37,973 nt of DNA, taken from the NCBI GenBank assembly GCA_026988015.1, contig JALSMA010000064.1:1-37973 (forward strand), read 5' to 3'. The translations under genes and the position numbers were made by a program. The notes beneath the pieces were generated by a model. That model made no database searches, was not told where the DNA came from, and was given only the letters and a program-made list of their open reading frames with translations. This document shows, piece after piece, positions 4,679 to 34,906 of the stretch. Numbering within the stretch: position 1 is the stretch's first letter; each line of letters opens with the position of its first letter. This DNA is from Desulfobulbaceae bacterium (lineage in GTDB: Bacteria; Desulfobacterota; Desulfobulbia; Desulfobulbales; Desulfocapsaceae).

Positions 4679-5713
4679 ATGAAAAAGAAGCTTGCAGGTT
4701 TAGCGCTGATTACTGTTTTTTCGGGAAGTGCCTATGCTGGAAATGCTATTATGGATGAGGCTCAGGGCGTGTTTGAGCCTATTCCCCATGAGGCTCCGGC
4801 CATAGAGGGCAATTCGGCTACTCCTGTAAAAGTGGAGCTTGGAAAAATGCTCTATTTTGAGCCGCGTCTCTCGAAAAGTGGCCTGGTAAGTTGTAACTTC
4901 TGTCATAATGTTGGTATGGGAGGGGATGATTTCCAGGAGACTTCCACCGGACATGGTTGGCAGAGGGGACCGCGTAATGCGCCCACTGTCCTGAATTCCG
5001 TATATAATATAGCGCAGTTCTGGGATGGTCGAGCTAAAGACCTGAAGGAGCAGGCCAAAGGGCCGATTCAGGCATCGGTTGAGATGAATAATACTCCAGA
5101 AGGAGCAGTGAAGACTCTGAAAAGTATGCCGGGGTATGTAGAGATTTTTGGAAAGGCATTCCCTGACGACAAGGATCCGGTAACCTTTGACAATATGGCG
5201 GCTGCCATCGAGGTTTTTGAGGCTACTCTGGTTACTCCTGATTCCCGTTTTGACAAGTTTCTGCGCGGTAACGCCGCAGCCCTCAACGATAAAGAGCAGA
5301 AAGGGTTAGCTGCATTTATGGAGAAGGGTTGTGCGGATTGCCATGGTGGTTTGAATATGGGAGGTGAAGACTATTTTGCCTTCGGTGTGGTGGATCGGCC
5401 TGCCGACGATATCATGCAGGGGGACAAAGGTAGAATGACGGTTACTGCCGAGGCCAGTGATGAATATGTTTTTAAGGCACCTACCCTGCGCAATGTGGAG
5501 CTCACCCCTCCATATTTCCATTCCGGTAAGGTCTGGTCGCTTGCTGATGCGGTAAAGCTCATGGGAACAGCCCAGTTGGGAACAGAACTTACTGCAGACG
5601 AAGAATCTCTGATCGTGAGTTTTCTCAAGGCAACCACCGGTAAGCAGCCGGAGGTCGTGTATCCAATTTTGCCGGCATCCACAGACGAGACTCCGAAACC
5701 TATTCTTGACTGA
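4679..5713 (+). CDS. ccpA: Di-heme cytochrome c peroxidase
   Basis: Periplasmic enzyme that reduces hydrogen peroxide to water with electrons from c-type cytochromes. 344 residues, normal for the family. Residues 1-20 are a signal peptide (cleavage SAYA-G). Two c-heme motifs are present: CNFCH at 72-76 (low-potential, peroxidatic heme) and CADCH at 218-222 (electron-entry heme). Other family signatures are LGKMLYFEPRLSKSG, GPRNAPTVLN, FWDGRAKDLKEQAKGP, and APTLRNVELTPPYFHSG. GGAG lies 8 bases before the ATG. Monocistronic, ending in a strong bidirectional terminator. MauG-type proteins share the fold, but the motif set fits CcpA better. It suggests defence against peroxide in an organism that meets oxygen at times. 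Confidence 0.93.
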   Translation: MKKKLAGLALITVFSGSAYAGNAIMDEAQGVFEPIPHEAPAIEGNSATPVKVELGKMLYFEPRLSKSGLVSCNFCHNVGMGGDDFQETSTGHGWQRGPRNAPTVLNSVYNIAQFWDGRAKDLKEQAKGPIQASVEMNNTPEGAVKTLKSMPGYVEIFGKAFPDDKDPVTFDNMAAAIEVFEATLVTPDSRFDKFLRGNAAALNDKEQKGLAAFMEKGCADCHGGLNMGGEDYFAFGVVDRPADDIMQGDKGRMTVTAEASDEYVFKAPTLRNVELTPPYFHSGKVWSLADAVKLMGTAQLGTELTADEESLIVSFLKATTGKQPEVVYPILPASTDETPKPILD

Positions 5714-20728: not shown

Positions 20729-21508
20729 ATGCGTTGCCCAAAATGTGGTTATATCTCATTTGATCATATGGAATCGTGTCGAAAGTGTAAGAAGGATATC
20801 TCAGGCACTGCAGACGTTGAAGGTACAACTTACCACGCCTCGGCGCCTTCGTTTCTCCGGGTTCCCGAGAAGAATACTGCTGATCCTGTTGAAGAAAATA
20901 TGTCAGCACTGCAATCCAATGATGAGATTGAGGGTGAGTTTGAGTTCTCTGACCCTGATTTGGATATCCTGGTTGATGACGATGAGAATGGGGCAACCAT
21001 TACTTTTGGTGAGGCGGATATTGATAACGGCGATTTTCTGCTTGAGCCGGAGGATGAGTCTGACGAAGATGGCACCTTTGAGTTCGAACTCGATGATGAT
21101 ACGGATTCCTCAGACGATGTGGAGAGTATTGCTGCTCCGCTGAATGTCCCGGATGAGTTGTCTGATATATCAGATCTTGCGCCACCTGAAGAGGGGGATG
21201 GTCCCATCGCCTCTGTCTCCAGTGACATGAGTCTCTCCTTGGATGACGAAACGAGCCTTGATGAAGAGCTCGACCTTGATGGACTTGATCTTGATCTGGG
21301 TCTTGGTGGTGATAAAAAGGTTGCTGACAGTGACATGTCACTCTCCCTTGATGATATAGATCTGTCGCCGGGTGATCTTCTTGAAGAGACCAGTGAACTA
21401 GACAGTATGAGCCTGGATCTCAGCTTGGATGAGATTGAAGCGGCTCCTGCATCTGAGGATAAAAAATCTTCCGGAAGCCTTGATGGCATATCCCTTTCTC
21501 TTGATTGA
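20729..21508 (+). CDS. Zinc-ribbon protein with long acidic repetitive tail
   Basis: 259 residues. The N terminus is a zinc ribbon (MRCPKCGYISFDHMESCRKC: Cys 3, 6, 17, 20). From about residue 65 to the end the protein is a very acidic, Ser/Leu/Asp-rich, probably disordered chain. It contains recurring short units: MSLSLDDETSLDEELDLDGL, MSLSLDDIDLSPGDLLEE, MSLDLSLDEIE, and a final SLDGISLSLD. No membrane segment or signal is present. SD AAGGTG lies 8 bases before the ATG. Not a named family to me. A zinc ribbon plus an acidic tail with amphipathic LSLDD motifs could be a nucleic-acid or protein-binding scaffold; that is speculation. Confidence 0.8.
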   Translation: MRCPKCGYISFDHMESCRKCKKDISGTADVEGTTYHASAPSFLRVPEKNTADPVEENMSALQSNDEIEGEFEFSDPDLDILVDDDENGATITFGEADIDNGDFLLEPEDESDEDGTFEFELDDDTDSSDDVESIAAPLNVPDELSDISDLAPPEEGDGPIASVSSDMSLSLDDETSLDEELDLDGLDLDLGLGGDKKVADSDMSLSLDDIDLSPGDLLEETSELDSMSLDLSLDEIEAAPASEDKKSSGSLDGISLSLD

Positions 21509-21820: not shown

Positions 21821-21860
21821 AAGGCATTTAGCTCATTTATGGGTTAAATGCTTTTTTTTT
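21821..21860 (+). terminator. Intrinsic terminator of tRNA-Phe
   Basis: AAGGCATTTA (21821-21830) pairs with TTAAATGCTTT (21844-21854), followed by an uninterrupted T tract (21852-21860), eight bases after the tRNA CCA end. Confidence 0.85.
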
Positions 21861-22235: not shown

Positions 22236-24038
22236 ATGAAATTTTTTTTTTGTTGTACCATGATAAGCCTTGTTACCGCAGGAATCCTTGCAGGATCTGC
22301 CGACCAGGTGGATGCGGGACAGAAGGATTCTCCGGAACCCATTGAATTTAAAAGCGTTGCTTTTCCGACAAGCGCTATGGACAAGCGTAGTATCCTCGCC
22401 AGTGATGAAGTAACTGTTGATGGAAAGACTCAGGCGATTGGCTACAATACAATCCTCCGCAGTGGGGATACAATAGGAAGTGATGTTTTTGGGCTCCTAG
22501 TGGATGAAAACGGTAAGCCCGTACTTAACAAAGATGGTTCCAGACACATATCCAACGATAATGATTTCAGTTCTCTCTTGCCGATTGGCAACAAACTGTT
22601 CATGGTCTCCCACTTTGAAAGTCGCCCGGGAGCCATGTATCTCACAGAACTCGAACAGAACAAGGCAGATGGAAAGCTGGAGGCAGTAAGCACTAAAAGC
22701 ATAGATTTTTCTTCCTTTGGCGGTTTGTGGGTTCCCTGTGCCGGGAGTGTAACTCCCTGGGGCACACATCTTGGCAGTGAAGAATATCCTACCAATGCCA
22801 GGGTAATGGAACAAGCCAGCTCAATGGATGAAATCGAAGATTATGATAAACCCATGGCACGTTATTTTAACCTTGATCCGTATGCAAAATCCACGACGGT
22901 GGATGATTTCCGGGGTGTGTTTAAAGCGTATAGGTATGGTTATCCCGTTGAAGTGACTGTGTCGGCAGATGGTAATGCAAGTGTCCAGAAACACTTTGCC
23001 ATGGGGCGGGTGGCTGTGGAACTTGCTTATGTTATGCCAGATAACCGTACGGCCTATATTTCCGACGATGGGACCAATGTCGGTTTTTTCATGTTTGTGG
23101 CAGATCGTGCTAAAGATCTTTCTAGCGGAACCCTGTATGGCGCAAAGTGGAACCAGATACACGATGCACATGGAGGATATGCCGAACTTGATTGGGTAAA
23201 CCTGGGCCATGCCGACGATGATACCATTCAGAAAGCGATAGAAGGTGGAACTGCATTTTCCGATATTTTTAAGGTTTCCACCCCGAAAGATGACGGCAGT
23301 TGCGAGCAGGGATTTACATCCATAAGAACCACTACCGGCCATGAATGTCTCCAGGTACAACCTGGCATGGAAAGCATCGCTTCGCGGCTCGAGACTAGAC
23401 GCTATGCCGCCATGAAGGGCGCCACAACGGAATTCCGGAAAGAGGAAGGGATTACCTATGACGAGGACAATCGCAAACTATACGTGGCCATGAGCCAGGT
23501 AGCTAAAGGAATGGAAGATGGTGGCAAGCATGACAAAGGTGGGCCTAATCACATTCGTCTTCCCAAAAACAAGTGTGGTGTTGTTTATGGTCTGGATATT
23601 CGCCCTGATGTCACCATCGGCAGTGATTTTGTTGCGGCGAATATGTATGGAGTTGTTGCCGGTACTATGCACAAATACCCTAGGGACGGAGATTTCGCAG
23701 ATAATAGCTGTGATGTCAATGCAATTGCCAACCCTGATAATATCACTTACATGACTGGTCACGACACTTTGATCATTGGGGAGGACACAGGTTCCGGACA
23801 CCAGAATGATGCCATCTGGGCCTTCAAGACCAAAACCGGAAAACTTACGCGGATTCAGACCACCCCGTATGGATCTGAGACCACATCACCCTATTTCTAT
23901 CCCGATATTAACGGATATGCCTATCTTATGAGTGTTGTGCAGCATCCATATGGCGAATCAGACGGTGACAAACTTCGTGATTCAGCTGCGGCAAAGGCCT
24001 ACACCGGATACATCGGCCCCTTACCAGCCATGAACTAG
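22236..24038 (+). CDS. PhoX-family (DUF839) exported phosphatase-like protein
   Basis: 600 residues. The N terminus (MKFFFCCTMISLVTAGILAG) is a Sec-type signal, cleaved near residues 27-28 (VDA-G). The rest matches the DUF839/PhoX beta-propeller family: LRSGDTIGSDVFGLLVDENG, SHFESRPGAMYLTELEQN, FGGLWVPCAGSVTPWGTHL, GSEEYPTNAR, YGYPVEVTV, MGRVAVELAYVMPDNRTAYI, FFMFVADRA, YDEDNRKLYVAMSQ. Known PhoX enzymes are Ca/Fe-dependent phosphatases exported by Tat. This one has no twin-arginine, and an in-frame stop just upstream excludes an earlier start. SD GAGG sits close to the ATG. Phosphatase activity is therefore inferred from family only. The cytochrome-propeller gene follows after 108 bases on the same strand. 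Confidence 0.85.
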   Translation: MKFFFCCTMISLVTAGILAGSADQVDAGQKDSPEPIEFKSVAFPTSAMDKRSILASDEVTVDGKTQAIGYNTILRSGDTIGSDVFGLLVDENGKPVLNKDGSRHISNDNDFSSLLPIGNKLFMVSHFESRPGAMYLTELEQNKADGKLEAVSTKSIDFSSFGGLWVPCAGSVTPWGTHLGSEEYPTNARVMEQASSMDEIEDYDKPMARYFNLDPYAKSTTVDDFRGVFKAYRYGYPVEVTVSADGNASVQKHFAMGRVAVELAYVMPDNRTAYISDDGTNVGFFMFVADRAKDLSSGTLYGAKWNQIHDAHGGYAELDWVNLGHADDDTIQKAIEGGTAFSDIFKVSTPKDDGSCEQGFTSIRTTTGHECLQVQPGMESIASRLETRRYAAMKGATTEFRKEEGITYDEDNRKLYVAMSQVAKGMEDGGKHDKGGPNHIRLPKNKCGVVYGLDIRPDVTIGSDFVAANMYGVVAGTMHKYPRDGDFADNSCDVNAIANPDNITYMTGHDTLIIGEDTGSGHQNDAIWAFKTKTGKLTRIQTTPYGSETTSPYFYPDINGYAYLMSVVQHPYGESDGDKLRDSAAAKAYTGYIGPLPAMN

Positions 24039-24065: not shown

Positions 24066-24091
24066 GTGGCGCTGCGTTTCTGCAGCGTCAC
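24066..24091 (+). repeat. Hairpin between phoX-like and cytochrome genes
   Basis: GTGGCGCTGC (24066-24075) and GCAGCGTCAC (24082-24091) pair with one mismatch around a 6-base loop. The following sequence is only moderately T-rich, so it may attenuate rather than stop transcription into the cytochrome gene. Confidence 0.45.
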
Positions 24092-24146
24092 ACCCCATCT
24101 TTACAGGACTTTTTACTCAACACCAACACTCTCGAGGTGCCGATTC

Positions 24147-27100
24147 ATGACTACACGGAAATATCTGCTGGCTATTCTTATCTGTATTCTGTCAGCGCAG
24201 CTAGGCAACAGTAACGAAATACCTCGAGTTACCCTGAAAAGAACAATTATCACCAATGAGACTGCCTATATTCCATCACAGTGTTATGTAAAAACAAAGA
24301 GCAGCGACCTAGGGAAGCGCATCTTTAATCCTTGTTATGTGTGCCATACCCGATCACCTGAACCAAATTATGTTAACGATCAAGTGCTGCAGCGTGCCTA
24401 TTCTTTCCCGGAAGCTGCCCTGAAGAATCCCTGGCACAATTTGTTTGAAGACCGTACAGAGCGAATTGGCGATATCAGTGATCAGGAAATTGATATTTAT
24501 ATAGCGAAAAATAATTACCTGGACAGCAATGGGGATATTCTTCTGCAAAAACGGCTCAATAACCTTCCATCTTCTTGGGATTACAACAGTAATGGGGTAT
24601 GGGATGGCTATACGCCAGACTGCTGGTTTAATTTTGATAACCAAGGGTTTGACCGCAGTCCGGAGGACAGCTATTCAGGATGGAGAGTTTTTGCATATTA
24701 CCCATTCCCCGGAACCTTCTGGCCGACAAACGGATCCACCGATGACGTTATGATCCGGCTTCCTGAGAATTTTCGTACCAACGAACGGGGCGAATTTGAC
24801 CTGGGTATCTATCGAATCAATCTGGCCATTGTTGAGGCAGTAGTGAGCAAGAAAACCATCAGCATAGAGCCGACTGATGAAAGACAATTTGGCGTAGATC
24901 TCAACAAAGATGGCGAACTGGCCATCACCGATCAAATAGTTTATGGATGGGACCCAAGAAATAACATCAATATGTCCTATGTGGGGCGCGCAAAAGTTGA
25001 CCTGCAACAGGGACTGGTTCACTTGGCGGCAGGACTATTTCCTGTGGGTACGGAATTCCTTAACAGTGTCCGATATGTCGATTTTAAATCAGATGGTGAA
25101 ACAACGCTCTCTCCACGAATGAAAGAGTTGCGTTATATGAAAAAGCGCACATGGCGAACATATTCAGACCTTGAGGAGGCAGCACTCAATGAGGTCAAGG
25201 AAAAAAACGATTTCCCTGACCGTACCCGTCAACTTCTTGGTGACCTGGAACATGGGATCAACAATAATACAGGCTGGCTGTTGCAGGGGTTTGTTGAAGA
25301 CAGCTCCGGCAACCTGCGGCCCCAGAGTTTTGAGGAGACAGCGTATTGTATTGGCTGCCATGGTGGTACAGGTGTAACTACAGACTCTACATACTCTTTT
25401 ACAAGGAAGGTAGACAGCAGTCACTTCCAGGCCGGATGGTTCCACTGGACTCAGCGGGGGATGAAGGGGCTGAACGAACCGAAGATACATATCAGAGATG
25501 CCGGTGTCTATTACGAATACAGCTACTATCTGATGTATAACGGATCCGGCAGCGAATTCCGTCACAATCCAGAGGTGGAACAGCAGTTTTTTCATCCTGA
25601 TGGAACTGTGAAAAAAGAGAAGATAGACCAGCTCCATGATGACATATCGATTCTTCTTAGTCCTTCCAGGGATCGTGCCAGATTGTTCAACAAGGCATAT
25701 CGTACAATAGTCATCGATCAGGATTTTATCGATGGCCGGGATGTAAATGTGATCGGGATGTCCAGAGTTTATAAAAGTGTTGAACAGGATCTCACTACAG
25801 GAGTCAAAAAAGCAACATCCATTAATGATTTTGGTTCAAGATTTGGTTCCCATGTCAATACAGCTAAGCAAAACTCTTTCCACAAAGATGGAATTACAGA
25901 AAAAAGTCAGCAGCAGAAACTAAAAATAAACCGCATTAGCGGCAAGGGAATGAAGGGCCCCAACGGCCGGAAATATGAGGTCGACTGGCAGGGTATAATC
26001 CATAAAAGCAATTACAGCCAAGGAATATCGGGTGTGCATTTTACCTTCCCGTCTCGTATTACTTTGCCGACACGATTTATCGTACCACCCGGAAAAAATC
26101 GTGCCTGCTACACATGCCATAGACTGGATTATCCGGGAACTCAGAGCCCGGAGCACCTGAGCAACATAATTGACCCCGTTGATAACCAGGCTGAACTTAC
26201 CGCAAACATGACCCGATTAACTGACAACCCCGGGCGAGATTTGAATGGTAAGTGGAGTCCAGATAGAAGCAGGATTGTCTATGTCTCTAATCGTAGTGGT
26301 GATGACCAACTCTGGATGATGAGCAGTGATGGCTCAAACAAGCGCCAACTGACGTCGGGACCAGCTACTGCTGCCTGGCCTCAGTGGAGTTTTGACGGAA
26401 AAACAGTGGTATACCTGTCATTCAATCAAAAAAGTGACACCTACTCCATTGAATGTATCGATATAAACTCCGGTAAGCAGGAAAGCATCATTCACAGTAA
26501 CAGCCCTATGGCGAGACCAGGATTTCATCCCGATGGGTCTGCCATAGTTTATGCAGCACAAATAGACTCTAATTGGGATATCTGGTTGATAGAAAGGGGT
26601 ACCGCCAGGAAATACAGGTTAACCAGCGATCCGCAGATGGAAACAAATCCCCTATGGAGACCCGATGGTAAGGCTCTGGCATATAAGGTGGCGCCCAGCG
26701 GAGAATACCCCTTGACCGAAGAGTACTTCATGACTTTTGAGAATGGATATGGCAGTCCGGAAATATATGCCTGGAGCGGCCCACAGTCAGTTCAAATGAG
26801 TGATTGGAGTCCTGATGGAAAAAAGATTACATACACCGCTGAGATAATAAGCGACAGCTACGGTAAAGATCGGGTGACGTATGCCGCAATGGTTTCTGAG
26901 GTATATTTCGAAAATAACCTGGCAGTAATGAAGAACATAAAAGTCTTATCAAAAGGGATGACATTGGGCGACCGTGGTCCGGTATTTTCATCAGATGGAA
27001 GTGCAATTGCCTTCTGGGCGTGGGACACTTCGGCAAATGCCACTCTTTGGCTTTACAATGTTTCCAGTGATAGCACTGTTAGATTGACCAGTGACGGAAA

Positions 27101-27233
27101 TGATATGTACCCGCAATGGGGAGGCCCTGATGGGAAACGACTGCTGTTTTCATCTACCAGAGCTGGAAACAGTGATGTGACGGTATTGTTATTAGCCCCT
27201 CATTGCCTCAATTCAATGACACATATTCCTTGA
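24147..27233 (+). CDS. Exported tri-heme cytochrome c fused to a TolB/PD40 beta-propeller
   Basis: 1028 residues from ATG 24147 (GAGGTG 7 bases upstream; a GTG-started extension upstream is not credible). A signal peptide spans residues 1-~22. Three c-heme sites are widely spaced: CYVCH near 63-67, CIGCH near 400-404 and CYTCH near 653-657. Between the first two are Ca-binding-like segments (NNYLDSNGDI, DLNKDGELAI). After residue ~700 come repeated PD40 blades of the TolB type: GKWSPDRSRIVYVSNRSGDD, WPQWSFDGKTVVYLS, ARPGFHPDGSAIVYAA, NPLWRPDGKALAYK, MSDWSPDGKKITYTA, RGPVFSSDGSAIAFWA, YPQWGGPDGKRLLFSS. Probably a periplasmic or surface redox protein. Hydrazine-synthase alpha-type proteins also combine a propeller with hemes, but in a different order; that link is speculative. 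Confidence 0.85.
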   Translation: MTTRKYLLAILICILSAQLGNSNEIPRVTLKRTIITNETAYIPSQCYVKTKSSDLGKRIFNPCYVCHTRSPEPNYVNDQVLQRAYSFPEAALKNPWHNLFEDRTERIGDISDQEIDIYIAKNNYLDSNGDILLQKRLNNLPSSWDYNSNGVWDGYTPDCWFNFDNQGFDRSPEDSYSGWRVFAYYPFPGTFWPTNGSTDDVMIRLPENFRTNERGEFDLGIYRINLAIVEAVVSKKTISIEPTDERQFGVDLNKDGELAITDQIVYGWDPRNNINMSYVGRAKVDLQQGLVHLAAGLFPVGTEFLNSVRYVDFKSDGETTLSPRMKELRYMKKRTWRTYSDLEEAALNEVKEKNDFPDRTRQLLGDLEHGINNNTGWLLQGFVEDSSGNLRPQSFEETAYCIGCHGGTGVTTDSTYSFTRKVDSSHFQAGWFHWTQRGMKGLNEPKIHIRDAGVYYEYSYYLMYNGSGSEFRHNPEVEQQFFHPDGTVKKEKIDQLHDDISILLSPSRDRARLFNKAYRTIVIDQDFIDGRDVNVIGMSRVYKSVEQDLTTGVKKATSINDFGSRFGSHVNTAKQNSFHKDGITEKSQQQKLKINRISGKGMKGPNGRKYEVDWQGIIHKSNYSQGISGVHFTFPSRITLPTRFIVPPGKNRACYTCHRLDYPGTQSPEHLSNIIDPVDNQAELTANMTRLTDNPGRDLNGKWSPDRSRIVYVSNRSGDDQLWMMSSDGSNKRQLTSGPATAAWPQWSFDGKTVVYLSFNQKSDTYSIECIDINSGKQESIIHSNSPMARPGFHPDGSAIVYAAQIDSNWDIWLIERGTARKYRLTSDPQMETNPLWRPDGKALAYKVAPSGEYPLTEEYFMTFENGYGSPEIYAWSGPQSVQMSDWSPDGKKITYTAEIISDSYGKDRVTYAAMVSEVYFENNLAVMKNIKVLSKGMTLGDRGPVFSSDGSAIAFWAWDTSANATLWLYNVSSDSTVRLTSDGNDMYPQWGGPDGKRLLFSSTRAGNSDVTVLLLAPHCLNSMTHIP

Positions 27234-27529: not shown

Positions 27530-29284
27530 ATGTTTCTGAGATATTTTTATTTATCGCTAGTTCTCTCGGCAGTATTGAACCTTTACAGCAGCAATGCTTT
27601 TGCAACTGACAGGACGTTCCAGCCAATTCCAACTTCCCCCCCTCCTATTACAAAAAAACCTATTATTAAAACACCTGCGACTAAAACTTCCCGTGGAGTG
27701 CAACCAGTTACTATGTCATCAAAAGCGACTGGTCAGCCGGGGTTTTGCTGTAAAGACGGTGATATAACCAGGGCTACGGAAAGTAGTTGTAGAATGAGAG
27801 GAGGTTTGTTTTTCTTGAGTGAAGGGGCTGCAGAAATCCGCTGTGCTCAGAATCACGGCTATTGCTGCAAAAATAGCAAAATAACTCAGGCAACAACAGA
27901 TATCTGTAAAAAGGATGGTGGCATTTTTTACCATTTACTGCAAAATGCCAAAAAGTACTGCAGAGGCTATTGTAATTATGATAAGAAAACCCAGCGAATG
28001 ACCCGTAGACAATGCCAGCGAGTCAAAGGTGAATTTTTTGAAACTTCTGTTCTGGCCCGGAAGAATCTTATTAAGGTGAAACAACAGAGCGTTGTTCAAA
28101 AAAGTTCTTTTTCCAGACCAGGCAGGCAGCTGCGGAATGCGTTGCCGGATCTGGTGGTGAAGTCTGTTTCCTGGTCATCCAATCCAGTTGAAGGACAACT
28201 GCTTGGACATACTTCCATTCTCAATATTACGGTTAATAATAAAGGACCTGGATCTGCAAGCCCGAGCAAGTTGCACATTGGTTGCAAATCGCTCACAGGG
28301 ACCAACTGTCCAAGCTCCCTAGTAGGGGAAATTGATGTGCCAGGGCTGATTACCGGGGAGTCAATGTCATTTGCGTGGCCATCTCCAACAGACCAAAAAT
28401 GGCTTGAAGGCACCTATCGGATGACCTTCACGGCAGATTATCAATTCAATATGGTTGCTGAATCCAATGAGAATAATAATACAAAGATTTTGACTTTTAC
28501 AGTTCCATCTAGCATGGAACTTCTTAAAAAACTTCAAGTTAAGCCTGTTAGTAACTTGAAAATAATGGCTGATATGGACCTCGAAGTTGTTTCGATTACG
28601 ATTTCAAACAACAATCCTTTTCCCCAAGAAGAAGTGACTGTAACTGCTATTGTTCAAAATACAGGCAAGTTAAAAACGCCAAGCGTCTATTCAAAATTTA
28701 CGTTCTGGAATACAAATGGTGGAGGCCCGGGAAGCACTTTCTACACAGTCTCCCCCTCTGTTCCATCTCTGTTTCCCGGACAAACATTTAAACTGGAAAC
28801 AACCACAACGCTGATTACTCTTGCCGGGCATGTAGGAGTTGTAGCAGAGATCGACCCTCAGAATTATCTCGAAGAATTAAATGAGAATAATAATAAGAAG
28901 ACACTTTATTTTGATGTGATATGTAAAAGTGAGCTTGCCTCTTATGACTATACAAAGCCGAAACCTGCAAATATACAAGGTTTAGCTAAGATAGGAGAGG
29001 ATTTTCAGCTGGATGTTTGGGTTTACAATAATGGTGGGTGTGCTTCAGAGCCCGCTGTTTTAGCAATCCAGGGAGTCGGGGTGAGCCTCGTTACATATAC
29101 TATCCCGGCAATTTCTAGAAACAGTAAAGTGAAAATCCCAGTAACCCTTAGATGGGAAACAAGCGGAATAAAAGATTGTGAGATTATAGTAGATTACACA
29201 GATGTCAATAGTGAGTCGATTGAAAATAATAATCGGATGCCATTGATCGTGACTGTTGTTGGTGACTGGCCGAATACTGAATAA
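27530..29284 (+). CDS. Exported protein with Cys-rich triple repeat and three CARDB domains
   Basis: 584 residues. A signal peptide spans 1-25 (NAFA-T). A Pro/Thr-rich linker (30-65) follows. Next come three related ~35-residue units: GFCCKDGDITRATESSCRMR at 71-105, GYCCKNSKITQATTDICKKD at 110-144, and a shorter GYCNYDKKTQRMTRRQCQ at 146-170. The pattern is G(F/Y)CC...T....C...GG.F(F/Y)...C. The rest is three CARDB-type Ig-like domains (~207-330, ~352-462, ~465-575), each ending in a NENNN or SIENNN Asn-rich signature before the last strand. CARDB domains are extracellular adhesion modules. SD-like GGGGGAAAAGGTGAAG precedes the ATG. Probably cell-surface or secreted; the Cys units may be disulfide-bonded. 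Neighbours suggest an envelope role. Confidence 0.82.
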   Translation: MFLRYFYLSLVLSAVLNLYSSNAFATDRTFQPIPTSPPPITKKPIIKTPATKTSRGVQPVTMSSKATGQPGFCCKDGDITRATESSCRMRGGLFFLSEGAAEIRCAQNHGYCCKNSKITQATTDICKKDGGIFYHLLQNAKKYCRGYCNYDKKTQRMTRRQCQRVKGEFFETSVLARKNLIKVKQQSVVQKSSFSRPGRQLRNALPDLVVKSVSWSSNPVEGQLLGHTSILNITVNNKGPGSASPSKLHIGCKSLTGTNCPSSLVGEIDVPGLITGESMSFAWPSPTDQKWLEGTYRMTFTADYQFNMVAESNENNNTKILTFTVPSSMELLKKLQVKPVSNLKIMADMDLEVVSITISNNNPFPQEEVTVTAIVQNTGKLKTPSVYSKFTFWNTNGGGPGSTFYTVSPSVPSLFPGQTFKLETTTTLITLAGHVGVVAEIDPQNYLEELNENNNKKTLYFDVICKSELASYDYTKPKPANIQGLAKIGEDFQLDVWVYNNGGCASEPAVLAIQGVGVSLVTYTIPAISRNSKVKIPVTLRWETSGIKDCEIIVDYTDVNSESIENNNRMPLIVTVVGDWPNTE

Positions 29285-30952: not shown

Positions 30953-31017
30953 ATAATACTTGTTGGAGCGCACATGTTGCGATTATGTGTGAGTATTATT
31001 TCTGTTTTGTTTTTTTG
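30953..31017 (+). terminator. Terminator after the lipoprotein gene
   Basis: ATAATACT (30953-30960) pairs with AGTATTAT (30992-30999), with an inner CACAT/ATGTG stem, and is followed by a T-rich run (31000-31016). It overlaps the final codons of the convergent coiled-coil gene. Confidence 0.6.
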
Positions 31018-33677
31018 AAGGGTAGAATACTGTAGGTAACCTTTCCGTTAAAATTTCCTCCCAAAAAAACTACCCGATCGTCGTCATCGTAATCACTCTT
31101 TCTGGAACGTTTTATATGCCCAGAATATATTTGTGCTTTTGCTACAATATCCCCAGTATCATCGGGCCATATGTGCTCGACTGAAATATGTTTCTGTCTC
31201 TTGCCGGGATGAATGAAAAGGGCTAAAAGTTCTGAAGATAACTTTTGGTTTAAATTAACAGATATAGCGCCCGCACCGGTACCGGATAGTTCACACCTGA
31301 GAAATCCACCTTGAGTAATGGTAAAAAGTGTTTTTGCCTTTTCCTTAGTTTGCAAAAATTCACGGATGCCGGAATGTGGAACCATTGTGTCAAACTCTGC
31401 CAGCCGAAATGAAAAATTATATGTTTTTACCGGTTGTGCAGGTATGAATGGGATTTCAATAGTGATTCTTTCTGGTGGTTGCGTCATCGTATCATTTTTT
31501 AACTCGAAGGTTTTTTCAGAGTATTGGATGTCTGGACCGGTTAGGCTTAATTTATATGTTCCAACTGGGATGTTTGCATAGAACTTATTGTTTCTTTCTG
31601 ACACCTTAATCGTTGTTTTTGTATTGGTTTTAATTAATTTTGCCTGGTGTTTTTTTGTTAGAGGCAGGTCAAGTTCAGGATTGGTTGGGAGGAAATATAC
31701 ACGCTGTTTCTTTTGTCTCGAATGATTGCTGTCATATTTTTTGGCTTTTGCGTTCGAAGATTTAGCGGTACTATCTTTTAAGTTCAGTAAATTATTGAGT
31801 CCTCCTTGTGCTGTTGTCAAATTGGTATCAAGTGTTTTGCACAGGTCATCAATATCAGGTTGAAAAAATATTGCCGCCTGAACAACGGTAGTAACATCCG
31901 GTGGACTTTCATCTGATGTGGTGATGGATTTTCGCCAGCTCCTGAATGTAAAAGTCATTGTGTTCTGGCCTTCACCAAGTTTTCCCAACGAGTAGTCATC
32001 TATCTTATATTGCACCACGTCTCTAAAGGCGATTTCCAGGTCAGTTTTAGTCTTTGGGTCGCCATTCCGGTAATAATAGGAGAGTAAACGTTTGGATTGT
32101 GCCAGGAGGGTGTCCTGTTCAGTTTTGAGATCTTTGGCCTTTTTGATCAGATCATTATGTTCCTGTAACAGTTTTCTGCCCTGTTGATAGAGTTGGCTGG
32201 AGAGCTGTGAATCTTCTGCCATAAGCTGGTTCTGCTTCTGTGCGCCCTCCAGGATTTCTCCTCCTTCAAGCAGAGGCGAGATGGCGTTCTGGATTTCCTC
32301 GCACTCAGCTTTACGGGCAGAGAGCATGGCCACCATCTGTTTCAACTCTTCAACGGTGCGATTGAGGTTTTCTGGATTGTCACCCGCTGTATGGTGGTGT
32401 GTACGTGTTGCGTTGGCGAGTTTTATTGTTGTGGCAGTTGCCAGCAGTACTTTTTTAGAATCAGTTTTTAAGGCATTGATACGGCTGGCATCCATAAAAG
32501 GTTTTGCCTTCTCAGCTGCCTTGAGCAATGCGTCACTACTTGTGAGATTTTGTTCGGATGCAACTAAACGACTAAACACTGTAATATATTGTTTGTTGAG
32601 ATCTGCGAAGTGTTTTCTCAGGTCTGAAGATTTCTTCTGCAGTGTCTTGAACTCGGACTCCTTGTCTTTGACTTGAGAGAAGAGTTTTTTTAACTTGGCA
32701 ACAGCTTCCTGTCCCTGACGTTTCTGCTCACCCTTGTTCTCGGCAATAATCCGGTTTGATTGCAGAGTATCGTAAACAACCCCTATGGAGGACTCCGTTA
32801 ACTCGTAGACATTCAGTGCATCACTGGCCAAAGGGATACACTTGGCCCCCTGGTAGGCACCCACCAGCCATCCTTTTTTTTGTCCTTCCTTGTAGGCGCC
32901 GACAATACCGCTCAATCCGGAAAGGTTCATGGCTGCATTCTTCAGATACAGGCCGGTGTCAAATCGTGTTGTTTTGGTTTTGGTATCATAGTAGTAGGCG
33001 TTTTGTCCCGCATCCCACAGTGAGAGGACACGACCAACAATCCCCCCTGTTTTTTGGACTTTTTTATACCTGCCATGGCTTGCAACTATTTTGCTGTTGC
33101 TGCTTCTGGCTTTGGCGAGGGCCCTTTCGTTTGCACTGTGCTTATTCAGCTTCGCCAGAGCCTGATTCTCAATATACTGCTTTCCTGATTTGCTATGTGC
33201 AACGGGAGAATTGGAGGTGTTCCCTGTGGCTATCAGTTTGTTGGATCGTGTTGGATTTGTTTTGGCAGCAGTTAAAACTTTACGCACCTTTTTGATATTC
33301 TGTTTATTTTGGCTGCTTCCGCTCTGCAATTTTTTAATGTATTGCTTGTTTCTGTCCAGTTTTCCTTTAACAAGATTTTTTGTTAATGCGTCCAGATGCA
33401 TTGTGTCGCTGAAGGCATCTGTGCTCTTGCCGGAGAGCAGGCTTTTGAGGTTGTAATCCTTCACTTGTGCCTTAAAAGCCTCGCTTTTACTGACGATAAG
33501 AGTTGTATTGTCATTCTGGATGTTTTCGTGATTTTTGAGGTCTTCTTGTATTAATCCGGGCTTTGCTGGAGTAGCAGATACGGTCCCGGGAAGGAATCCT
33601 GAAACCAGAAGAAGAGCCAGTGCAATACTCAAAGAGATGCAAACATAAGACGGTTTTTTATGCTGGTGAAACGTCAT
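30996..33677 (-). CDS. Large exported coiled-coil protein, unknown function
   Basis: 893 residues. A signal peptide spans 1-~35 (SGFLPGTVSA-T). Residues ~40-200 are basic and helical. A Gly-rich hydrophobic segment (~215-300; NLSGLSGIVGAYKEGQKKGW, LVGAYQGAKCIPLA) resembles glycine-zipper pore or membrane-inserting stretches. Residues ~310-560 are long coiled coil (AEKKLFSQVKDKE-type heptads, EELKQMVAMLSARKAECEE). Residues ~650-730 look like a PEGA/carboxypeptidase-type beta domain (KFYANIPVGTYKLSLTGPDI), and the C-terminal ~130 form another beta domain. Its start overlaps the TPR gene stop by 4 bp (ATGA), so the two are coupled. The layout suggests an envelope-spanning or surface assembly partner of the TPR protein. 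No family name is offered. Confidence 0.8.
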   Translation of the reverse strand: MTFHQHKKPSYVCISLSIALALLLVSGFLPGTVSATPAKPGLIQEDLKNHENIQNDNTTLIVSKSEAFKAQVKDYNLKSLLSGKSTDAFSDTMHLDALTKNLVKGKLDRNKQYIKKLQSGSSQNKQNIKKVRKVLTAAKTNPTRSNKLIATGNTSNSPVAHSKSGKQYIENQALAKLNKHSANERALAKARSSNSKIVASHGRYKKVQKTGGIVGRVLSLWDAGQNAYYYDTKTKTTRFDTGLYLKNAAMNLSGLSGIVGAYKEGQKKGWLVGAYQGAKCIPLASDALNVYELTESSIGVVYDTLQSNRIIAENKGEQKRQGQEAVAKLKKLFSQVKDKESEFKTLQKKSSDLRKHFADLNKQYITVFSRLVASEQNLTSSDALLKAAEKAKPFMDASRINALKTDSKKVLLATATTIKLANATRTHHHTAGDNPENLNRTVEELKQMVAMLSARKAECEEIQNAISPLLEGGEILEGAQKQNQLMAEDSQLSSQLYQQGRKLLQEHNDLIKKAKDLKTEQDTLLAQSKRLLSYYYRNGDPKTKTDLEIAFRDVVQYKIDDYSLGKLGEGQNTMTFTFRSWRKSITTSDESPPDVTTVVQAAIFFQPDIDDLCKTLDTNLTTAQGGLNNLLNLKDSTAKSSNAKAKKYDSNHSRQKKQRVYFLPTNPELDLPLTKKHQAKLIKTNTKTTIKVSERNNKFYANIPVGTYKLSLTGPDIQYSEKTFELKNDTMTQPPERITIEIPFIPAQPVKTYNFSFRLAEFDTMVPHSGIREFLQTKEKAKTLFTITQGGFLRCELSGTGAGAISVNLNQKLSSELLALFIHPGKRQKHISVEHIWPDDTGDIVAKAQIYSGHIKRSRKSDYDDDDRVVFLGGNFNGKVTYSILPFKKTKQK

Positions 33678-34906
33678 CTGGCACCTCCCAGAATCCTGTT
33701 TTTGACTTTTTCAACATAGGCGTGCAAAACACTATCGAGGTTTTTGTCGGCCAGGAGGCTGAAGGCAGTTGACAGTGCCGCATCTGTTTCTCCCTGCGCA
33801 TCCTGCAGGATAGCAATAGTTAACCCCAGAACTGGATCGTTGCCACGTTTCTGTATATTCTTGCGGATAAGTGCAATTGCAGAAGTTTCTTTTTGTGCGG
33901 AAAAAGCCACAAAGCTCATCTGTATAGCAGCCGCTCTACGTTTATCAACTGGACAGAACGTCATGCGTTGCTCCGCAAGGGCGAAGGCTACTTCAACGTT
34001 GCCCAACTGATGATAGGCTTCCACCAATCGTGCCAGGAGGGGATCTTCTGCAAACGATTCGAACACGGATTCATACAGGTCAATGGCCAGTGCTGTTAAG
34101 CTTGGCGAATTCACCTCCATGTAGGCATCTGCCAGATCAACGGTAATTCCTTTGTTGTCAGGCAGGCCAACGGTTGCCTTTTCAAGGTAGTCTATGGCAC
34201 TGAAAAGTTTGTCACGGTTTTTTTCCACAACAGCCTCGGCAAACAGGTTTGCACCACGGTCATGCCATTGCAGAGCATTCTCAGTCATGTATCTGCCGCG
34301 GAGCTCTTGCTCTTCTTCTGTCTTCTGTTGAATAGAATTTGCTAACCAGTCTGCACGGGCTGTTACTTTATGAACGTCTGCGGCACCTGGTGCCAGGGTG
34401 CAATATTTTCTATACGCCAGAACCGCCTGATCCGGCACACCCTGTTTTTCCAGCAGAATACCAAGATTTTTATAGGTGAGCGCATAGTGTTCATTGCTTT
34501 CCAGAGCTCGAATATACGCCTGTAACGCATCATCGAACCTGTTGAGCTTTCGCATGACCAGGCCGAGATTGTTTAGAGTAACAAAATTGGTCGGGTCTTT
34601 CTCGAGGGAACGGGCAAGGGTAATACGTGCTTCCTCCAGTTTTCCCTCTTTTGCCAGCTTGGTTCCCTGCTTTTGTAATTCAAGGGCCGTCAATGCTGCC
34701 TGCTGTGCCAATGGAGCAGCATTTTTATCTAGTGGCAGAAGGAAAGGGGAATCACCAGCTGTCGGAGCAGGAGGGGAGCTTTCCACTGTTTCCGAAGGAA
34801 GAGAAAAGGGCGATGTTTGACTGCTGGCAGGGAGAGCCTGAATGGAAAGTAAGGTGTAAAAGAGTAGTATCCAGCCAAGTGAAGGGGCAAGTCGTGGGAG
34901 CGGCAT
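33674..34906 (-). CDS. Exported TPR-repeat protein
   Basis: 410 residues. A signal peptide spans 1-~28 (LSIQALPASS-Q). A Pro/Ser-rich linker (30-60) follows. TPR motifs are clearest at ~75-175: GKLEEARITLARSLEKDPTN, LNNLGLVMRKLNRFDDALQA, TYKNLGILLEKQGVPDQAVL, each with the usual GLG/NLG and A..Y positions. Helical repeats continue to ~400 (ADAYMEVNSPSLTALAIDLY, VEAYHQLGNVEVAFALAEQR). Periplasmic TPR proteins usually scaffold complexes. It overlaps the downstream coiled-coil gene by 4 bp, and its start overlaps the stop of the broken gene upstream, so the three look like one operon. Confidence 0.85.
   Translation of the reverse strand: MPLPRLAPSLGWILLFYTLLSIQALPASSQTSPFSLPSETVESSPPAPTAGDSPFLLPLDKNAAPLAQQAALTALELQKQGTKLAKEGKLEEARITLARSLEKDPTNFVTLNNLGLVMRKLNRFDDALQAYIRALESNEHYALTYKNLGILLEKQGVPDQAVLAYRKYCTLAPGAADVHKVTARADWLANSIQQKTEEEQELRGRYMTENALQWHDRGANLFAEAVVEKNRDKLFSAIDYLEKATVGLPDNKGITVDLADAYMEVNSPSLTALAIDLYESVFESFAEDPLLARLVEAYHQLGNVEVAFALAEQRMTFCPVDKRRAAAIQMSFVAFSAQKETSAIALIRKNIQKRGNDPVLGLTIAILQDAQGETDAALSTAFSLLADKNLDSVLHAYVEKVKNRILGGAR

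Follow-up and report, generated by a model that had tools for sequence, protein, structure and literature searches.

A conserved gene pair of a PhoX-like protein and a P460-like diheme cytochrome, with an added heme and TolB-type propeller in Desulfobacterota

What kind of system is encoded where a multiheme cytochrome that ends in a beta-propeller lies directly behind the gene for a PhoX-like protein? The question is raised by contig JALSMA010000064.1 of the Desulfobulbaceae bacterium assembly GCA_026988015.1, a stretch of 37,973 nucleotides (the window), in which a tri-heme cytochrome-propeller fusion gene (24147..27233, + strand) follows a PhoX-like gene (22236..24038, + strand). An original prediction made from the letters alone had supposed that the two proteins could form a periplasmic redox complex without a known name, and had compared the plan of the fusion to the alpha subunit of hydrazine synthase. 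A redox unit remains plausible, with its core shifted from the hemes and PD40 propeller of that prediction to a diheme module resembling cytochromes P460 and c'-beta and the PhoX-like partner. The reading we favor, at a probability of roughly 40%, is that these two proteins constitute one exported two-component redox unit, either periplasmic or located on the cell surface.

The diheme module and its extension in Desulfobacterota

The fusion gene is enclosed in an open reading frame (ORF) at 24066..27233 (+), with its likely start at the ATG at 24147, preceded by a Shine-Dalgarno-like GAGGTG (24134..24139, +). The 1,028-residue product begins with a hydrophobic, signal-like stretch (MTTRKYLLAILICILSAQLGNS) that gives it the look of an exported protein, and contains CxxCH motifs at residues 63, 401, and 654, spaced 338 and 253 residues apart. 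These are the heme 1 site C63-Y-V-C-H67 (24333..24347, +), the heme 2 site C401-I-G-C-H405 within the P460-like domain described below (25347..25361, +), and the heme 3 site C654-Y-T-C-H658 (26106..26120, +), all supported by motif and alignment. Heme 3 sits in a linker of low-confidence predicted structure (residues 559-677; 25821..26177, +), which alignment and tblastn place only in the 13 fusions. The remainder (26178..27212, +) combines PD40 repeats (Pfam PD40, E = 2.6e-31 in 6 stretches) with a TolB-like fold: TolB is the top relative in the PDB by sequence (7mx5, 4.1e-21) as well as by fold (Foldseek, 7.9e-16), identifying this part as a TolB/PD40-type propeller. It resembles the PD40 propeller of the Tol-Pal protein TolB, from which the fusion differs by the attached tri-heme cytochrome. 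The chain length, the 3 heme motifs at spacings of about 250 to 340 residues, and the propeller repeats had all been read correctly from the sequence beforehand. A fold search with the full chain was dominated by propellers (TolB-like, S9-peptidase, and similar) and was uninformative for the heme part. The host genome contains a single copy of the heme module, at 24147-27233; a second genomic match to the whole fusion protein covers residues 688-905, in the propeller part only, at 27% identity.

A pattern scan with the fusion protein across 84,980 species, each represented by a single genome, returned 24 related loci, numbered here with an L. Five of them (L003-L007), from Desulfocapsa-like and related metagenome-assembled genomes, encode the closest full-length homologs, with 3 CxxCH motifs. 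In the other 19 the alignment ends at residues 547-608 and the proteins are free-standing, about 550-640 residues long with 2 CxxCH motifs (L023 being truncated by a contig end), and their hosts are Gammaproteobacteria, Alphaproteobacteria, and Myxococcota. Further genomes of the window's phylum added 7 full-length fusions and 1 divergent non-fused locus, while a propeller match was found in none of 38 loci from one gammaproteobacterial order, that of Teredinibacter waterburyi, where all 35 aligned cytochromes have exactly 2 CxxCH motifs. Because most relatives are free-standing, carry 2 CxxCH motifs, and lack a propeller, the first ~540 residues, the diheme module, look like the basic unit. 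Heme 3 and the TolB-type propeller look like an addition to it that is seen only in Desulfobacterota, a phylum name assigned to the fusions from named relatives. Of the 13 fusions, 12 group into one clade of a maximum-likelihood tree; the remaining one (L056) stands apart (98/87) beside a non-fused row, and may reflect a transfer, a loss, or a further fusion event.

In the groups sampled, the cytochrome was present in 4 of 395 genomes of the phylum and 9 of 193 of the order (the window's genome included), in 36 of 293 genomes of the order of Teredinibacter waterburyi, and in 1 of 289 of the class of Cereibacter johrii, namely the sample centre itself; the last two taxa were picked because each holds a member. 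Pfam, NCBIfam, and PDB searches with the diheme module gave no family above cut-off, in line with the original prediction of a complex without a known name, and one relative is annotated as "hypothetical protein". No title or abstract on the cytochrome-PhoX pair was found in a literature search whose coverage excludes most subscription journals. A divergent subfamily is represented by L062 (2846-5128) and L133 (2412-4379), whose cytochromes are 27-29% identical to that of the window, bear the heme motifs CQYCH and CVGCH, are extended at the C terminus, and adjoin a PhoX-like gene. They retain the EFAHP and VKEIRYM stretches and the cysteine upstream of heme 1.

A PhoX-like partner kept beside the cytochrome

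The gene upstream of the fusion, 108 bases away, encodes a 600-residue protein whose exported-looking nature had been foreseen: it has a signal-like N terminus, and it belongs to the PhoX family, scoring 9e-22 and 78.3 bits against a cut-off of 24 with Pfam PhoX (PF05787). It matches the PhoX structure 4amf at 6e-8 by sequence and at a profile E of 8.3e-21, and is the only PhoX-family match in the host genome.

Whether the pair is conserved had been proposed as a check on the original prediction, and the conservation proved to be strong. A PhoX-like gene lies beside the cytochrome in 20 of the 24 loci of the species-wide scan (19 by tblastn and L026 by Pfam) and in each of 8 additional regions (L055-L062) of the window's phylum, with the result that a diheme cytochrome paired with a PhoX relative is seen in 3 bacterial phyla. 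In 2 of the unpaired loci (L018 and L023) the cytochrome is at a contig end and the genome carries a PhoX-like gene close to the end of a different contig. Genomes of the order of Teredinibacter waterburyi were drawn evenly, and 38 loci were taken from 34 of its 36 cytochrome-bearing genomes, the other 2 being those of L017 and L018. Thirty of these loci have a partner of the window's kind (type 1) within the fetched stretch, 6 have instead a divergent PhoX-family neighbor (type 2; Pfam PhoX 2e-11 to 1e-16), and 2 (L134 and L135) are cytochrome fragments only, leaving a PhoX-superfamily gene near 36 of 36 non-fragment cytochrome loci. In the tree, the cytochromes that have a type-2 partner group into a single clade (100/100).

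All 62 tabulated pairs are on the same strand, the PhoX-like gene leading in 46 and the cytochrome in 16, and the gaps between matched stretches are under 650 bp in 59 and 2-3.3 kb in 3. The distance matrices of the 2 proteins over 53 pairs correlate at 0.88, compared with a maximum of 0.12 in 500 permutations, a comparison that ignores kinship. A reverse search of the 293 genomes with the type-1 profile found 36 strong places, none weaker than E = 1.3e-81 apart from a second piece of one gene at 7e-45, separated from weaker matches beginning at 1e-21, which are presumably ordinary PhoX. Of the strong places 32 are in cytochrome-bearing genomes, compared with the presence of the cytochrome in 36 of 293 genomes overall. 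No third shared gene emerged among the 24 clustered loci and 14 neighbors scanned, a scan that took in the neighbors at L055-L062 and L098-L133 only where they were of the PhoX family.

The partners of the cytochrome differ from PhoX in how they appear to be exported. According to PMC4223295, PhoX is exported by the Tat pathway, which was speculated to permit loading of iron in the cytoplasm. The N terminus of the window's partner (MKFFFCCTMISLVTAGILAGSADQVDAG) lacks the twin arginine, and Tat export is thus not indicated for it. Among 59 other PhoX-like proteins from cytochrome-bearing genomes the twin-arginine pattern is absent in 58, the sole match (L008) also matching a lipobox, and 40 of the 59 match a lipobox. 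The twin-arginine pattern is present in all 4 PhoX-like proteins of genomes that lack the cytochrome, 3 of them being near-identical at the N terminus and hence few independent cases. These counts are simple pattern matches, in which at least the lipobox calls of L012 and L059 look doubtful and that of L125 was apparently missed. The 59 exclude the proteins of the window, L026, and L129 and include L063-L065, where adjacency is not established and where L064 has no true N terminus. Three loci with a solitary Tat-type gene (L136-L138) all have, adjoining it, a similar membrane-protein-like ORF of 490-533 residues, which by resemblance is possibly a transporter. Since the pair is kept in both gene orders, the 2 proteins diverge together, and the hydrolase-like half does without the Tat signal of its relatives, the pattern is best explained if the 2 proteins come together on the cell surface or within the periplasm.

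At the level of residues, Cys168 of the window's partner (22737..22739, +), in an invariant column of 20 rows, aligns to a cysteine of Pseudomonas fluorescens PhoX that we take to be the iron-binding C179. Aligned to 4amf with an index offset of four, the type-1 partners keep the cysteine and 2 glutamates and have a near-invariant lysine at a fourth position; we assume the kept residues to be the metal-site residues C179, E273, and E387, and the place of the lysine to be that of R385. The likeness to the alkaline phosphatase PhoX (PF05787; 4amf/3zwu) thus consists of the Pfam model above cut-off and the retained cysteine and 2 glutamates. Unlike PhoX, the cytochrome-linked partners have no twin-arginine pattern, show lysine for what is presumably Arg385, are tied to a cytochrome, and often carry a lipobox and collagen-like repeats. 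In the 6 type-2 partners the aligned cysteine is apparently absent, and VSHEG, GRPED, and PDN stretches are retained.

In many gammaproteobacterial and Polyangia partners (L016, L017, L026, L065, L107-L115, and others) the lipobox is followed by collagen-like GxxGxx repeats, with a Pfam Collagen match at 2.8e-8 in L026, an arrangement that suggests a stalk at the cell surface. A DUF839 protein that might belong to the present family is reported from the Teredinibacter turnerae secretome (PMC12055684). On a Pseudoalteromonas plasmid the pair is annotated as "alkaline phosphatase PhoX" and "hypothetical protein".

The heme 2 domain and the P460/c'-beta superfamily

Residues ~152-425 of the fusion protein (24600..25421, +) form what is probably a P460/c'-beta domain with insertions. 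At E <= 1, all 25 aligned members of the family match Pfam PF16694 (Cytochrome_P460) below threshold, the best at 1.8e-4; the window protein does so at E = 0.024 and 15.5 bits, under the 27-bit cut-off, over a span just before and at heme 2. A model of the diheme module built from 32 aligned sequences has a mean pLDDT of 85.9 and a pTM of 0.89. Foldseek found nothing significant with it, with a proteasome chain ranked first at E = 0.24, and P460 and c'-beta structures occupy ranks 2, 3, 4, 6, 7, 9, 12, and 15. When Foldseek's 954 best chains were realigned with VIA-align, 19 reached Z >= 2, and among the matches listed 16 of 16 were P460/c'-beta. The best of these, 6hiu, superimposes 134 of 143 residues on model residues 111-403 at 3.4 Å with Z = 4.5, on a scale where models without a clear match typically have a best Z of 7-8 and a Z below 8 is by itself no proof.

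As an independent test, a profile of the diheme family was compared by HHalign with 18 P460/c'-beta-type proteins from 30 genome loci, the other 12 having been removed by a motif filter. The score was 40.1 (probability 63%, E = 7e-5 for this single comparison), against a mean of 15.4 and a maximum of 24.9 for 100 column-shuffled profiles; an alignment of 67 rows gave 38.9 and 56%. With both heme motifs masked the score was 28.3 (probability 8%) and the shuffle maximum 25.4, which points, by a small margin, to sequence homology beyond the heme motif. The features shared by the P460/c'-beta proteins (PF16694; NeP460 2je3, McP460 6hiu, McCP-beta 6hih) and the second half of the diheme module are the FP-x-G-T/S, M-x-K, and GW strands, then the CxxCH and a D...F/Y-S...R end. 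The matched structures are single-heme chains of ~135-160 residues, whereas the diheme module has ~130-150 extra residues in the span of the domain, an additional N-terminal heme, and a PhoX-superfamily gene partner.

Several of these results weaken the case for a P460 relationship: the best P460 structure reached only E = 0.28 in Foldseek, the highest Z lies below the 7-8 typical of models without a clear match, the HHalign probabilities are modest, and little of the margin over shuffles survives masking. A PDB profile search with the diheme family did not find P460, so that the signal arose only from sub-threshold Pfam matches, the fold search, and HHalign, and each test is weak taken singly. 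We consider it probable that the diheme module is homologous to P460/c'-beta.

The pocket itself appears to differ from that of cytochromes P460. A review of the superfamily (PMC11928373) gives the key P460 sites as a cross-linking lysine and a proton-accepting carboxylate, listing in Table 2 Lys70 (NeP460)/Lys78 for the former, with Phe61 as the equivalent in McCP-beta, and Glu96/Asp102 for the distal carboxylate, with Gly82 in McCP-beta. The HHalign mapping aligns Asn306 of the window protein (25062..25064, +) with the lysine, and over 67 rows this position is His in 61, Gln in 3, Asn in 2, and Lys in 1. Aligned to the place of the carboxylate is Arg329 (66 of 67 rows); the invariant Glu327 (67 of 67) stands 2 residues earlier, and the alignment could be off here. 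Both belong to a family signature, RMKELRYMKK (25116..25145, +). With asparagine here and usually histidine elsewhere at the place of the lysine, the diheme module is not a P460 proper, and may resemble the proteins described as a "halfway house" in the same review (PMC11928373). From the fold, the distal side of heme 2 is predicted to be open. For heme 1 the best candidate for a second ligand is Cys46, upstream of the motif and present in all 66 rows having a letter there.

Readings of the pair and its genomic setting

The pair is built from 2 known superfamilies and, as seen only in Desulfobacterota, a TolB-type propeller fusion. In the two-component redox unit that we favor, the PhoX-like propeller would bind a substrate at a PhoX-type Fe/Ca-like metal site, and the cytochrome would dock on this propeller and exchange electrons through its 2 hemes. 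Heme 1 would act as a relay, and heme 2, in its P460/c'-beta-type pocket with an open distal side, could take a small ligand. In Desulfobacterota the tethered heme 3 and the TolB-type propeller might lengthen the relay and tie it to a further partner, either periplasmic or in the outer membrane. The most likely division of labor is that the PhoX-like half holds the substrate, the cytochrome carries the electrons, and heme 2 is the exposed ligand-binding heme. Tentatively, the pair could be seen as a widespread system in which a PhoX-type metal propeller has become a redox-enzyme subunit: a Sec-exported, PhoX-like catalytic propeller wired to a giant diheme cytochrome of the P460 superfamily, whose pocket is lined by His, Asn, or Gln where the lysine cross-link would be. 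Such an enzyme, combining heme with Fe/Ca, would form a class of its own, extended in sulfur bacteria by heme 3 and a docking propeller.

Not all observations fit this arrangement. The genome of L021 (G576) has its PhoX-like gene on another contig, that of L013 (G578) holds the cytochrome and no PF05787 match, and 4 genomes have a strong PhoX-like protein and no cytochrome. The aligned cysteine seems to be missing from the type-2 partners, and the PhoX iron is described as redox-inactive (PMC4223295), so a common redox-active Fe-Cys site is hypothetical. In the aligned rows, moreover, no conserved His or Met can be named as distal ligand of heme 1.

The absence of the twin-arginine pattern from the cytochrome's partners and its presence in the 4 solitary ones could also mean that the cytochrome is a maturase. 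MauG works in this manner, with 2 hemes acting on a dedicated protein partner, and the diheme cytochrome would similarly modify or load the PhoX-like protein by means of peroxide at heme 2; passing Sec unfolded, that protein would have to be finished in the periplasm. Such a role accounts for the export difference nearly as well as the redox unit does, and it agrees with the pairing of the cytochrome with a single partner superfamily across phyla and with the lack of any other shared redox gene beside the pair in the loci examined. The P460 lysine cross-link is itself formed by a peroxide-dependent reaction (PMC11928373). The maturase role is nonetheless unlikely: the cytochrome has no Pfam CCP_MauG match, which would make MauG and the di-heme cytochrome c peroxidases functional analogs at most, no candidate for the modified residue was identified, and peroxide chemistry is less natural in Desulfocapsa-like hosts, which are anaerobes. 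We find it slightly harder still to believe that heme 2 is the sole active site, a P460/c'-beta-like enzyme or sink for a small ligand (NH2OH, NO, peroxide, or CO) for which the PhoX-like propeller is a scaffold or anchor. The P460-type similarity and the polar pocket candidates Glu327 and Arg329 would suit this, as would the lipoboxes, some with collagen-like repeats, of many gammaproteobacterial partners. In 66 of 67 rows, however, His, Asn, or Gln stands at the place of the lysine, and the carboxylate position is taken by Arg, so that NH2OH oxidase activity is not expected; furthermore, the type-1 partners keep PhoX metal-site residues that a mere scaffold would not need.

The same retained cysteine and glutamates, aligned with what we take to be metal ligands, and the PhoX model above cut-off would be expected if the partner were an ordinary PhoX-type phosphatase that the cytochrome tunes by sensing redox state or a gas, or with which it is only co-regulated. 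This seems improbable given the near-invariant lysine at the presumed Arg385 place in type-1 partners, the missing twin-arginine pattern, and the lack of a Pho-box excess in the window, where 7 matches with at most 3 mismatches to the Pho-box consensus compare with a shuffle mean of 4.0 and as many occur in 13 of 100 shuffles. The closest match upstream lies on the - strand, 0.9 kb ahead of 22236. A hydrazine synthase-like enzyme, finally, is barely credible. Like the fusion, the alpha subunit of hydrazine synthase combines c-type hemes with a propeller in one periplasmic chain, at least 2 c-hemes are present in both, and the PD40 part weakly matches the beta subunit (E = 0.022). As the original prediction had noted, the domain order is different, the propeller coming first in the alpha subunit (PMC12758564), and the propeller is missing in most of the family and in all 38 gammaproteobacterial loci. 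A PDB profile search with the full-length family alignment returned no hydrazine synthase alpha chain at E <= 10. Distant homologs of the alpha subunit are reported from Desulfobacterota (PMC12758564), and our comparison is confined to hydrazine synthase chains in the PDB.

As the Pseudoalteromonas case illustrates, members of this PhoX branch can be labeled "alkaline phosphatase PhoX" by homology. If the branch does work with a dedicated heme partner, such labels and the phosphorus-cycle inferences derived from them would be wrong for it. The P460/c'-beta superfamily would then extend from single-heme chains to large multiheme ones, offering a natural test of what a P460 pocket is capable of without its lysine, and the export-signal difference that accompanies the cytochrome offers a testable hint about the loading of the metal site.

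Upstream of the pair is a terminator-like stem-loop (21821..21854, +) of 15 pairs, 4 of them G-C, followed by a T run, identified by consensus match only. The whole window contains 11 terminator-like sites (shuffle mean 5.7), and consensus matching gave none on the + strand between the PhoX-like and fusion genes. A di-heme cytochrome c peroxidase/MauG gene is found at 4679-5713 (+), ~16.5 kb from the pair, and a related CCP_MauG gene occurs in Archangium (L008, 9401-10534), 1.6 kb beyond the cytochrome. Genes for methyl-accepting chemotaxis receptors adjoin the pair in 3 distant genomes, of Desulfocapsa, Cereibacter, and a gammaproteobacterium (L006 1744-3834, L009 2381-4048, and L025 9571-11598), the general abundance of such genes not being factored in. 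Downstream of the fusion gene, a CARDB-domain protein (27530-29284, +) has, close to the N terminus, 3 repeats rich in cysteine (GFCCKDGDITRAT, GYCCKNSKITQAT, and GYCNYDKKTQRMT), and upstream of the pair the product of 20729-21508 (+) starts with a zinc-ribbon-like CPKCGY and continues into a highly acidic, repetitive tail containing MSLSLDD units. On the opposite strand lies an ORF of 893 residues (30996-33677, -) with no Pfam match at 1e-4; it is preceded by a TPR-protein ORF (33674-34906, -) that overlaps its start by 4 bases.

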